This document shows, one piece after another, positions 3,773 through 59,275 of a stretch of 64,000 nucleotides of DNA (position 1 is the first letter of the stretch; each line of letters begins with the position of its first letter). Below the pieces are notes generated by a model. The model worked only from the letters and a program-made list of their open reading frames with translations, was not told the DNA's origin and ran no database searches. The position numbers and the translations under genes were made by a program. Origin of the DNA: Halobaculum sp. MBLA0147 (GTDB lineage: Archaea; Halobacteriota; Halobacteria; Halobacteriales; Haloferacaceae); NCBI RefSeq assembly GCF_041361345.1, contig NZ_JBGKAD010000001.1, positions 1,860,001 to 1,924,000 on the forward strand, written 5' to 3'.

Positions 3773-3887
3773 ACCGACCGTCGGGGGTGGGCGGTGAAAA
3801 ACGGCGCGTCCCGAGTGGCGGTTACAGCGAGCGGTGTGGTGGGAGGAGTGTTCGTTTCGGTTGTTATTGTCTGTTCTCCCCACAGCA

Positions 3888-3898
3888 TTCAATATCGC
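3888..3898 (+). promoter_or_regulatory. TATA-like element for the nuclease-like gene
   Basis: The sequence ttcaatatcg lies about 25 bp before ATG 3921, the spacing expected for a leaderless archaeal transcript. The local stretch 3840-3920 is clearly more A/T-rich than its surroundings. Confidence 0.45.
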
Positions 3899-3920
3899 TC
3901 TCTTCGGGCTAGCGCTTGAG

Positions 3921-5132
3921 ATGTCGACACAGACTACCCCGGAGATCGACGCCGACGACGAGACACTGTCGATCGACGGCTTCGAACTGGAGGACGCCAG
4001 CGTCGCGTCACACTTCGCGGAGTTCGACGACGGCGACCGCGCCGAAGAACTCGAACGAGTGCTCAGACTCGGCGTCGAGACGGCGGGACTCGCCGCCACG
4101 ACCGGCGAGGAGGAGTACGTCGAACGGAAGTTCGAACAGATGCGGTCGGACTTCGAAGCCGAGATCGAACGCGTCGAGGAGGAGGTCGAAGAGAAGTTCG
4201 GGACGGACGGTGAGGTGCCGGCGGTGTTCGAGAAACACCTCGGCGAAGACGGGACGCTCCGGAGCCGACTGGACGACGCGTTCGGAGAAGACGGCGTCTT
4301 CGTCGACCGACTAGACGACGAGTTGGGAGAGGACGGCGAACGGATTCAGGCGGCACTCGATCCTGACACGGACGGAACGCCTATCCAGCGACTTCGGAGC
4401 CAACTCCGCGAAGACATCAGTCAACTCCGTGATAAGATCGAGGAGGTAACCACCGAGGAGGAGACCCGAGAGGAGATTCGTGGCCGGACACGGCTCAAGG
4501 GAGACGACTTCGAAGACACCGTTGAGGAGCTACTGTCGGATCTCGTCTACGGAACGAGCCACAGTCTCGAGTACACGGGAGAGACGACCGGCGAGATAGC
4601 GAACGAGAAGGTCGGGGACTTCGTCCTCACGCTCGACGAGACCGACCAGCGGATCGTCGTCGAAGCGAAAAGCGACAAGGGATACACTCAGCCGGACATC
4701 CAGGAGGAACTCGGCCGCGCGATCGAGAACCGAGACGCAGACTACGGGATCATCGTCTTCGAGTGTGAAGAGTACGTGCCGAACAAGGTCGGCTACTTCC
4801 ACGAGTTCGAGACCGACCGTCTGGTCGTCACACTGAGCGAGGACGAAGAGGAGGACGAAGTCGAACCAGGGTTCCTCAGAATTGCGTTCAACTGGGCGAA
4901 GACACGCGCCGTGCAGAACTACGCTAGTGCCGACTCCGGGACCGATCTCGAGGTCATTCAGGCGAACATCGGACAGGTCGAAGACAAGATCGGGCAGTTC
5001 AGCACGATCAGGTCAAAGACCACGTCGATCAAGAAGACGGCCAACGAGATCGACGAGGAACTAGAGGAGATCGAGACGGAGATCGGGGAGCGACTCACCG
5101 CGATCAGAACGGAACTCGCCGGCAACTCGTAG
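3921..5132 (+). CDS. Coiled-coil protein with PD-(D/E)XK nuclease-like core
   Basis: 403 residues from ATG 3921. Residues about 65-185 are Glu-rich heptad repeats predicted to form coiled coils, with repeated short LGEDG-type turns at 107-140. Residues 193-285 form a compact domain: E198 in [13 protein letters not shown]233 in VGDFVLTL, E248-A-K250 in IVVEAKSD, then [17 protein letters not shown] and YGIIVFE. This D...ExK order with flanking strands matches the PD-(D/E)XK superfamily seen in RmuC-like and restriction-type nucleases. A second coiled coil fills 343-400. RmuC itself has a membrane helix, which is absent here. The gene is less G+C-rich than its neighbours, suggesting recent acquisition. 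It abuts serS tail to tail with no spacer. Nuclease activity is inferred from motif order only. Confidence 0.6.
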
Positions 5133-47726: not shown

Positions 47727-48380
47727 TTACGAACACGCCTGGTTGTGTGAATCCCATTCGTCAACGATACCAGTTAGTGCATCCTGCGAGTACCAGATTA
47801 CCGCGCCGGCGACCACCGACACGAGTAGAGTGATTATCAGGAGACCGATGTCTATCAGTGTTAGCTTCACGCCCTGGAGTCCGACGAATGCACCAGCAGT
47901 GAAGAGGTTGACCGCGCTCAAGGTGACGATGATACTCCCCACTAACAGGTACCGGTTTACCGTCGCTACCTTGGCATTGTGCGACATCCACTCGTCGTAC
48001 TTCTCTACCAACACGCCTTCGAACTCGTCTCTACGGCCGTGTTCACCGCGATTCGCCTTCTTGAGGAACGAGCCGGAGACACCGAGGTCGATCGAGGTGG
48101 TAGTGTAGGTCACCGCCGAACTGAACAGTGCGAACCACAGGGCGACTAGTCCGAACACCGAACACGCGTTGACGAACTGACCGACGGTGAACTCCTGAGA
48201 GCGAACTGTCAGCGAGAGCCCGGTGAGGAGTATTCCAGCGAACACGATGTTGACTCGAAAGAGATTGACTGCGACCCTGTCCGTCGTCTGAATCTTCTCG
48301 ATCTGTGCGTCGAGAGAGCGGCGTGCCTCCTCCAGACGACGTGTCCCGTCGGTACGACCCCGTTCGTCGCTCGCCATCAC
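47727..48380 (-). CDS. Four-helix membrane protein of unknown function
   Basis: 217 residues from ATG 48380 (a second ATG follows at once). Hydrophobic helices lie at about 40-58, 70-94, 142-168 and 174-197, arranged as two pairs with a charged cytoplasmic segment (SGSFLKKANRGEHGRRDEFEGVLVEK) between; the N-terminal 35 residues form a charged amphipathic helix. The layout recalls SLATT-type and other membrane effectors of bacterial immune systems, but no diagnostic motif is seen. The gene is clearly less G+C-rich than its neighbours. A minus-strand TATA-like aagtataaaattc lies about 27 bp upstream, so the transcript is probably leaderless. Confidence 0.65.
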   Translation of the reverse strand: MMASDERGRTDGTRRLEEARRSLDAQIEKIQTTDRVAVNLFRVNIVFAGILLTGLSLTVRSQEFTVGQFVNACSVFGLVALWFALFSSAVTYTTTSIDLGVSGSFLKKANRGEHGRRDEFEGVLVEKYDEWMSHNAKVATVNRYLLVGSIIVTLSAVNLFTAGAFVGLQGVKLTLIDIGLLIITLLVSVVAGAVIWYSQDALTGIVDEWDSHNQACS

Positions 48381-54963: not shown

Positions 54964-55725
54964 TCAGTCGACGTACTCGTTGAAGACTGGCAGCGGACGG
55001 TCGGGATCGTTCCGACGAAGACCGACGAGGAACTGCCTAACCTCGTCCGTCAGTTTCTCCTCGCTATCGAATCGGACTAGATCGACACCGTACGTACTCG
55101 GAACCTCGTCGATGCTGGCGCTCCCGAATCCGTCCGACTCGAACACACGGAAGCGTTCCGGTGGCTTTCGAACCGGCTCGTCGTTCCTTCGACGGAGGTG
55201 GAACTCCCCGAGGATACTCCCGACTTCGGAGCCAACACCGGTCGTCAGCCCTCCTTCAGTGAACACGAACACCACGGCGTCGCTGACTGCCGCGAACACC
55301 ACGGACTGATCGAGAACCGACATCCCCTCTTCGTTCGGCTCGGCTCGGTGTTCAGTCGGAATCGGTACGTCCGTCGCCAGAAAGGCTCTGACGCCAATCT
55401 CTTCACGGAGACGCTCGCACAGGTCGTCTAAGACGGCTTCGTAGCTGGGTTCTCCGTCGACACGGTGACGTTCGGGATCGAACAACGGATCCTCGGCGAA
55501 CTTCGACGCCAACTGATCCGCGTCCTCGAACGCGTACTCTGCGTCGAACGCCGTGTAGGGACCCATGACGAAGACGAACATCTCTTCGTCGAGTGGCTCT
55601 CCCGGCGCTTCGGGTGCACCGTCTCGGACGTACGAGACGACGGGCTCTCCGTCGTACCTGAATCCGAACTCCCGGTTCGTCACTGTGTTCGCGCACGAAC
55701 GGCTAGTACAAGAATGTGAAAACAT
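54964..55725 (-). CDS. Nucleoside-deoxyribosyltransferase/TIR-like protein of unknown function
   Basis: 253 residues from ATG 55725; GTG 55683 (VTNREFGFRYDGEPVVSYVR) is an alternative start that removes a Cys/Ser-rich piece. Residues 51-58 (VFVMGPYT) match the first strand and loop of the nucleoside 2-deoxyribosyltransferase-like fold, followed by helix YEAVLDDLCERLREEIG, strand AFLATDVPIP, and SVLDQSVVFAAVSDAVVFVFTEGGLTTGVGSEVGSILGEF with D149 and E167 where these enzymes keep a substrate Asp and the catalytic Glu. The remainder alternates strands and helices. Lower G+C than flanking genes. It diverges from a winged-helix/HAD operon with a palindrome between them, mirroring the 45822 cassette. 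Confidence 0.6.
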   Translation of the reverse strand: MFSHSCTSRSCANTVTNREFGFRYDGEPVVSYVRDGAPEAPGEPLDEEMFVFVMGPYTAFDAEYAFEDADQLASKFAEDPLFDPERHRVDGEPSYEAVLDDLCERLREEIGVRAFLATDVPIPTEHRAEPNEEGMSVLDQSVVFAAVSDAVVFVFTEGGLTTGVGSEVGSILGEFHLRRRNDEPVRKPPERFRVFESDGFGSASIDEVPSTYGVDLVRFDSEEKLTDEVRQFLVGLRRNDPDRPLPVFNEYVD

Positions 55726-55739
55726 AGACCAGTAGAAAA

Positions 55740-55757
55740 GGTTAACGACCGTTAACC
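55740..55757. promoter_or_regulatory. Palindromic operator in divergent promoter
   Basis: ggttaacg-ac-cgttaacc is an 8-bp perfect inverted repeat with a two-base centre, located between the starts of the deoxyribosyltransferase-like gene (55725) and the winged-helix gene (55787). The plus-strand tgatatcg next to it (55758-55765) may be the TATA element. Same form, different sequence, as the palindrome at 46630. Confidence 0.75.
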
Positions 55758-55786
55758 TGATATCGCGTGAGAATCAAGAGTGAGGT

Positions 55787-56353
55787 GTGAAGAGCAACAT
55801 ACAGCCCGACGAGCACTCCGAACCGTTGGACGAGGGTGACGTGTGTGCGTTCACCGACAGCGTGTTGTTCGGTGGAACGGTCGACTCTCTCGACGCACAC
55901 GTCGAGCGGAAACGTGCGCTCGCAGATCCGTTCCGGTACAGCGTGCTGTATCTCACGTTCCTGTACGGACGTGTCTCTCGTAGCCGACTCGTGGAGGAGA
56001 CTGGACGCGACAGCAACGACCTCCAACACCACCTGAAACGTCTGCTGGAGACGAACCTTCTCGCCGAAGTCCCTGCACCGGACGACGCGGACGGCCGGCG
56101 GACGTACTACCGAATCACGACGATGGGCAAGCAGGCGATCGGCAGTGACCTCTCACGACTCACGGACGAACAGAACGCAGCCGAGAAACAGTGGAGATCG
56201 TTCGCCGATCCGGCGTTCGTGGAGACGGACGACACCGAGGGCCGACGGCGGGTGGCGGTCTCGACCGCGAACGACGCAGAAGATCTCAAGCAGATGCAAG
56301 AATATCTCGCCCGAGCCGGGAGAGGACTCGACACGTCGACGAGCGAACGATGA
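55787..56353 (+). CDS. Winged-helix transcriptional regulator
   Basis: 188 residues from GTG 55787 (read as MKSNIQPDEHSEPLDEGDVC). A winged helix spans about 38-115: HVERKRALADPFRYSVLYLTFLYGRVSRSRLVEETGRDSNDLQHHLKRLLETNLLAEV with a recognition helix in NDLQHHLKRLLE and a wing at DADGRRTYYRITTMG. The C-terminal part is a charged helix. The gene overlaps the HAD gene by four bases (ATGA), so the two are translationally coupled. By position and by the palindrome it probably regulates both itself and the divergent gene. Confidence 0.82.
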   Translation: MKSNIQPDEHSEPLDEGDVCAFTDSVLFGGTVDSLDAHVERKRALADPFRYSVLYLTFLYGRVSRSRLVEETGRDSNDLQHHLKRLLETNLLAEVPAPDDADGRRTYYRITTMGKQAIGSDLSRLTDEQNAAEKQWRSFADPAFVETDDTEGRRRVAVSTANDAEDLKQMQEYLARAGRGLDTSTSER

Positions 56354-57204
56354 GCGACTCGTCGACACTCGCCGTCGTCTTCGACTTCGACGACACACTG
56401 GCACCCGACTCGACGACGTACCTGCTCGAGGAGAACGGTGTCGACCCTGGGACGTTCTGGTCGGAACGGTTCGAGAACAGAATCTCCGACGGGTACGACC
56501 CGACCGTCGCGTACCTGACACTCCTGTTGGATCTCGTCGGTGAAGACGAACCGTTGGGAACACTGACAGAGAGTGATCTCCGTGACTACGGGTCCGAACT
56601 CGACGACGAACTGTACGAGGGGGTTCCGGGACTCTTCGACGACGTTCGAGCGATCGTCGCCGAGTACGACACCGTCGACGTGGAGTTCTACGTCGTCACC
56701 GAGGCGCTCGGACCAATCGTTCGCGGGACACACGTCGCAGACGAGTGTGAGGCGGTGTACGCGTCGGAAGTGGCGACCGACGAGAACGACGTTGTCGACC
56801 ACGTCAAGCGGCCGATCTCGTTCACCGACAAGACGCGGTACCTGTTCGAGATCAACAAGGGAATCGAACGGTCGGCTGGTCGCGACAACCCGTTCGCGGT
56901 GAACGAGTCGCGGGACGAGAGTGCCCGAGCGATTCCCTTCGAGAACGTGATCTACGTGGGTAACGGGATGACCGACATTCCGTGTTTCTCGCTGGTGAAC
57001 GACAGGAACGGCCACGTGTTCGCCGTGTCTCCGACCTCGGAGTCGCACAAACAGCGTGCGATTCGTGACATCGGTTCACCGCGCCGGACGAGACACGCGA
57101 GTGAACCCGCCTACGGCACCGACTCTCGACTGGGGTCGCTTCTCCGATTGACTATCGAAGGACTGTGTACAGAGCGGACCATCGACGAACTCGAAGCACT
57201 CTGA
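56350..57204 (+). CDS. HAD-superfamily phosphatase-like protein
   Basis: 284 residues from ATG 56350 (MSDSSTLAVVFDFDDTLAPD). HAD motifs are complete: motif I DFDDT with nucleophile D12 and acid/base D14, motif II VVTEA, motif III Lys in SFTDKTRYLFEINKG, and motif IV IYVGNGMTDIPCF. The cap between motifs I and II is helical (LLEENGVDPGTFWSERFENRI). It resembles phosphoserine-phosphatase-like HADs with unknown substrates. Coupling to the winged-helix gene and the divergent deoxyribosyltransferase-like gene suggests a nucleotide or sugar-phosphate substrate, which is inference. Confidence 0.82.
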   Translation: MSDSSTLAVVFDFDDTLAPDSTTYLLEENGVDPGTFWSERFENRISDGYDPTVAYLTLLLDLVGEDEPLGTLTESDLRDYGSELDDELYEGVPGLFDDVRAIVAEYDTVDVEFYVVTEALGPIVRGTHVADECEAVYASEVATDENDVVDHVKRPISFTDKTRYLFEINKGIERSAGRDNPFAVNESRDESARAIPFENVIYVGNGMTDIPCFSLVNDRNGHVFAVSPTSESHKQRAIRDIGSPRRTRHASEPAYGTDSRLGSLLRLTIEGLCTERTIDELEAL

Positions 57205-59011: not shown

Positions 59012-59275
59012 GTAGTCAGTGTCGCAGGTGGCGTCCACCAGACACGCCGTCGCTCCACTCGAACACGGCCCCTGCCACGAGCGGGGCGACTCGTCGCGCG
59101 AGTCGCGGTCGGTGCTCGCGGCGACCACTCTCGCGTCTGGCCGACGGCCCCGGCCGCCGACGCCGTGCAACTCGGCGCAAACGGGTCGAAAACGGCGAAA
59201 AGCGGCGCCGAGAGTCCGAAATCCGGTGCGACCGTCTACCCCCCTCTTGTGTGGGCCGCTCCTGGCTCGACTCGC
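59012..59275. other. Spacer upstream of the acidic secreted protein
   Basis: About 260 bp. The A-richer stretch 59175-59230 (caaacgggtcgaaaacggcg) may hold the promoter; no gene is supported. Confidence 0.35.

Follow-up and report, generated by a model that had tools for sequence, protein, structure and literature searches.

A conserved unit of DUF7509, winged-helix and HAD-family genes in haloarchaea as a candidate nucleotide-degrading cassette

MilB and DNPH1 are nucleotide N-glycosidases of the nucleoside deoxyribosyltransferase family, MilB taking CMP and hmCMP and DNPH1 taking hmdUMP, and their nucleophiles are E103 and E104, respectively (PMC4081090, PMC10603095). Phosphatases of the HAD superfamily are also found in immunity: the Chp effectors of type III CRISPR systems have a CARF-HAD architecture in which the HAD domain dephosphorylates ATP, dATP, and IMP, leading to nucleotide depletion (PMC12715507), and the validated defence system DS-9 has a HAD gene in second position (PMC13092281). 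On a bacterial plasmid, the GmrSD enzyme BrxU adds its protection to that of BREX, and it is a proven companion in a BREX island (PMC8565348). PADLOC further holds PDC-S34, a single-gene phage-defence candidate; a literature search for DUF7509 and PDC-S34 found no paper on either. To our knowledge, few nucleotide-depleting systems are known in archaeal defence.

We analysed a 64-kb stretch of the haloarchaeon Halobaculum sp. MBLA0147 (GCF_041361345.1, NZ_JBGKAD010000001.1:1,860,001-1,924,000; handle G000:C1), called the window below, with positions counted from its first base. It holds a unit of three genes that appears to be undescribed, although its component parts are of known kinds.

Layout, composition, and candidate operator of the unit

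The minus strand carries a DUF7509 gene (54964..55725), assigned as nucleoside-2-deoxyribosyltransferase-like from Pfam PF24349 and an AlphaFold model. Divergent to it, on the plus strand, lie a gene with a GTG start for an ArsR-like winged-helix (wHTH) regulator with a C-terminal extension of ~60 residues (55787..56353; weak profile matches) and a gene for a 284-aa HAD-superfamily protein of the PDC-S34 family (56350..57204; Pfam HAD and PADLOC PDC-S34), the two overlapping in an ATGA stop/start (56350..56353, plus strand). All three ORFs lie on the strands and with the overlap that the initial annotation had described, and its claim of a lower G+C content was borne out, with 0.602 in the unit vs. 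0.709 and 0.719 in the 6-kb flanks. GC3 is 0.70-0.77 in the three genes vs. 0.86-0.94 in the flanking genes, and the DUF7509 and HAD genes are within the four lowest of the 44 genes called in the window. The neighbours of the unit are housekeeping genes. Elsewhere in the window, a low-GC3 gene (3834-5132) encodes an Mrr-type restriction endonuclease domain (Pfam E = 4.7e-5), and a 217-aa minus-strand ORF of low G+C content (47727-48380; 0.571) has no Pfam match.

Between the divergent genes we find an inverted repeat, AGGTTAACGACCGTTAACCT (55739..55758), with perfect 9-bp arms; a scan of the window allowing up to three mismatches finds no other copy (0.18 expected). A related repeat of the type GGTTAnC-N-CGTTAACC is found in 8/8 units of this kind in haloarchaea, ~25-40 bases ahead of the wHTH start, and the repeat is likely to be the operator of the winged-helix regulator at the divergent promoters, as predicted from its position and conservation. 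The winged-helix protein itself scores under the Pfam cut-offs (HTH_metalloreg, E = 8e-6), matches the HTH part of PADLOC Csa3 (E = 2e-8), and is 36-49% identical to the wHTH proteins of the other seven units.

Distribution, transfer, and genomic contexts

A close HAD homologue occurs in only 5 of 391 sampled haloarchaeal genomes, and the PDC-S34 profile finds the same five; added searches by genus and family brought the number of intact copies to eight in ~500 haloarchaeal genomes, our estimate of the distinct genomes searched. Two weak HAD matches inside ORFs of 636-647 aa (G296 and G069) were taken as unrelated. All eight intact copies (8/8) have the layout DUF7509 < > wHTH-HAD, which confirms, by joint occurrence, the earlier suggestion that the three genes belong together. 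The refuting case that the initial annotation itself named, a HAD gene found mostly apart from the other two, does not describe haloarchaea, but the HAD family is widespread in bacteria without them. The possibility that three unrelated genes are neighbours by chance is refuted by the identical layout in eight genomes from at least three families and at different loci and has practically no probability left, and we regard the three genes as an established, genuine unit.

Mantel tests on the protein distances show congruence among the three (r 0.71-0.86, p <= 0.003), so the three genes moved together. The HAD proteins of three genomes from three different families (G074, G270, and G318) are 72-78% identical to each other, vs. 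58-60% among the three copies from the window's own genus; the greater closeness across families indicates transfer. Overall, the unit is both rare and mobile between haloarchaeal families. A viral origin was considered and rejected: viral contigs yielded no more than two weak relatives, at 25-27%, and phages yielded one. A plasmid of Haladaptatus pallidirubidus carries a decayed HAD gene of the PDC-S34-type family seen in the window (L062:5905-6435).

The low G+C content of the unit could be read as a recent insertion, a reading we rejected since two congeners preserve its history at this locus. G391 has the unit in the same place, between pdxS (91% identical at the protein level) and a homologue of the window gene at 59165, and in G124 the same interval is reduced to ~200 bases with a 32-residue HAD stub (69% identical) behind pdxS. 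These two loci argue that the unit is old here and was lost once by deletion. Its identity between G391 and the window is 60%, vs. 80-91% for pdxS, DedA, and TrpS; the unit evolves rapidly, unless its alleles have been exchanged.

DUF7509 is far more common than the unit, being encoded in 213/391 haloarchaeal genomes, and a DUF7509 gene is present in Haloferax volcanii. Most of the 30 DUF7509 copies that we inspected are divergent to a short ArsR-like wHTH gene without a HAD gene, mostly beside ordinary genes. These canonical pairs and the unit have the two proteins in common, arranged divergently in both; the pairs differ in having two genes and no HAD, a DUF7509 only 25-31% identical, and another conserved intergenic sequence. 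The nearest DUF7509 subclade (46-50% identity; L180-L184 and Natrinema L063) likewise consists of two-gene pairs without HAD, whereas at >=52% identity to the window protein the HAD gene is always present in the families searched. The initial annotation's view that the HAD was added to an existing module agrees with this distribution, in which HAD-less pairs are widespread and the HAD is confined to one subclade.

Bacterial relatives of the HAD protein (30-44%) are widespread and, at the ~18 loci inspected by eye, mostly in ordinary chromosomal contexts; we therefore did not accept a defence call from the PDC-S34 label alone. Relatives on three alphaproteobacterial plasmids (L056, L057, and L058) lie within type I restriction operons of conserved order, hsdS-hsdM-rhuM-hsdS-(Shedu)-HAD-hsdR-sprT, two of them with Shedu. 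Among the haloarchaeal units, a known defence system encloses one of eight: in G270 the unit sits within a complete BREX operon, brxA-brxB-brxC-pglX-[unit]-pglZ-brxL (PADLOC profiles). In G455, a PADLOC candidate (DUF6884) lies 0.6 kb downstream of the unit. The BREX locus of G120, ~94% identical in DNA to that of G270 over pglZ-brxL, has a GmrSD restriction gene in the pglX-pglZ interval. In further BREX loci of haloarchaea this interval is filled by a short ORF, by two unknown genes, or by TBP-like genes (the latter at L195:8304-8885 and L196:7078-7623; Pfam TBP E = 8e-20 and 4e-32). Given these varied contents, the interval serves as a slot for cargo, with the unit as one such cargo. The parallel with BrxU is that GmrSD fills the same slot in a near-identical BREX, although its proteins are unrelated to those of the unit and the unit is found outside BREX too. 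We rejected the unit as a core component of BREX, as 1/8 units is in BREX and related BREX loci lack it.

Candidate activities of the DUF7509 and HAD proteins

The DUF7509 protein matches PF24349 over residues 47-246 (E = 8.9e-43; 146.7 bits against a curated cut-off of 27 bits). Because its homologues begin at the equivalent position, the true start is probably GTG 55683, giving a product of 239 aa, with the frame from 55725 being too long. The fold nearest to its AlphaFold model (pLDDT 75) is MilB CMP N-glycosidase (prob 0.98-0.99, E 0.008-0.012, TM (target) 0.56-0.61); deoxyribosyltransferases, DNPH1 (prob 0.87, TM (target) 0.70), and TIR proteins rank below it, and every E-value is >0.001. 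These fold matches lend moderate support to a deoxyribosyltransferase-like fold, the likeness named in the initial annotation. A 27-sequence DUF7509 profile searched against solved structures gave no match at E <= 5.

Glu167 (codon 55225..55227, minus strand, numbered from 55725) is invariant in 28 aligned sequences, within GVGxExG (GVGSEVG in the window protein), and by alignment and analogy we propose it as the nucleophile, the counterpart of MilB E103 and DNPH1 E104. In addition to being the best fold matches, these two enzymes resemble DUF7509 in its GPY near the first strand and in the invariant Glu (PMC4081090, PMC10603095); DUF7509 differs in an extra N-terminal segment and shares no recognisable sequence similarity with solved structures. 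The residue after GPF/GPY is Arg or Lys in MilB-like enzymes that take hmCMP, Lys in canonical DUF7509, and Thr in the window's DUF7509 clade. We rejected a tie between the gain of HAD and this Lys-to-Thr change, as the HAD-less sister clade has Thr too.

The HAD protein is matched by Pfam HAD (E = 2.4e-8) and by three PADLOC PDC-S34 models (E = 6.4e-55, 3.6e-40, and 4e-30), the best of them spanning its full length; PDC-S34 is described as a single gene, but the match here belongs to a three-gene unit. A search for a Chp-type architecture in the 284 residues found just the HAD domain: like the Chp effectors, the protein would be a HAD phosphatase, but it is without CARF, without transmembrane helices, and has no CRISPR link. 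The folds nearest to its model (pLDDT 91) are cytosolic 5'-nucleotidase III and phosphoserine phosphatase, with E ~1e-7 and 11-18% identity.

HAD phosphatases have a set of four motifs: I (DxDxT), II (S/T), III (K), and IV (GDxxxD). The initial annotation took all of them to be intact, which proved wrong: D12xD14, T117, and K161 account for motifs I-III, whereas motif IV is GNGMTD, with Asn205 (codon 56962-56964, plus strand) where most homologues have Asp. Motif IV has GDG in six of the eight copies and GNGVTD in the congener G345, while in G391 motif I reads FGFDD, replacing the nucleophile Asp by Gly (a draft genome, in which a sequencing error is possible). Two copies with Asn and one with Gly put HAD activity in question; it may be weak in the window's genus, with the active site drifting. 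The same substitutions, in a frame otherwise kept, could mean that the HAD has turned into a non-catalytic, ligand-binding or regulatory partner of the wHTH/DUF7509 pair in this genus. We find this improbable, as all four motifs are kept in 5/8 copies and the rest of the pocket is conserved. Some active HAD enzymes moreover tolerate Asn in place of the motif IV Asp, for example BT2127 pyrophosphatase.

Proposed function and competing explanations

We tentatively favour a mobile, operator-controlled, nucleotide-degrading cassette that is most likely antiviral, and we treat the defence role as a lead. The winged-helix protein would bind the inverted repeat that lies between the two promoters, repressing both sides; upon induction, two nucleotide-acting enzymes would be made. 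DUF7509 would hydrolyse a nucleotide or nucleoside in the manner of an N-glycosidase, and the HAD protein would be a phosphatase resembling 5'-nucleotidases, activities suggested by the fold matches and by the conserved residues. Together they would drain or clean the pool of nucleotides, with defence against viruses as the most likely purpose.

The main rival is an operon for nucleotide metabolism, salvage, or sanitation with no antiviral role, in which DUF7509, like DNPH1, clears away nucleotides that are damaged or modified, the HAD removes phosphate from the products, and the wHTH senses a metabolite. The folds would suit such a task, DUF7509 is common and mostly found by ordinary genes, and the bacterial HAD relatives lie in housekeeping contexts. 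It sits poorly with a unit that is rare, patchy, transferred as a block, lower in G+C content, placed as BREX cargo, and diverging faster than pdxS, DedA, and TrpS, and on balance we consider it rather unlikely. The toxin-antidote circuit proposed in the initial annotation, with the HAD neutralising the effect of the divergent DUF7509 gene, would account for an enzyme pair with an autoregulator and a shared operator, and for the joint loss of DUF7509, wHTH, and most of the HAD in G124, which left no orphan enzyme. But type II toxin-antitoxin systems combine a toxin and a repressing antidote in one operon, whereas here the supposed toxin is divergent and the regulator is expressed with the HAD. 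DUF7509 is also kept without HAD in many genomes, the sister subclade included, so the HAD is not a general required antidote for it, and it is the HAD that shows drift at catalytic positions, in three genomes, with no loss of the DUF7509 Glu. For these last two reasons we rank the circuit below sanitation and judge it very doubtful.

With the favoured antiviral cassette, archaeal defence would include a HAD phosphatase paired with a nucleosidase. Irrespective of its role, DUF7509, present in more than half of the sampled haloarchaeal genomes, gains a catalytic hypothesis (nucleotide N-glycosidase) and a regulator with a candidate operator, and one of its subclades gains a partner phosphatase and a position as BREX cargo; the function of DUF7509 becomes testable in Haloferax volcanii. 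A more specific version, in which the cassette acts against modified viral nucleotides, with HAD and DUF7509 successively removing phosphate and base (e.g., from 5-hydroxymethyl-pyrimidine monophosphates), is a long shot. Were it true, the unit would complement BREX from the slot that holds GmrSD, which cuts modified-cytosine DNA, in a near-identical BREX, and the widespread DUF7509-wHTH pairs would be a simpler form of the cassette. The conserved intergenic sequence of those canonical pairs (L010-L039) reads TTTTTGAGAA..GGCTTGAGAA..CTAAG, unlike the operator of the HAD-linked units.
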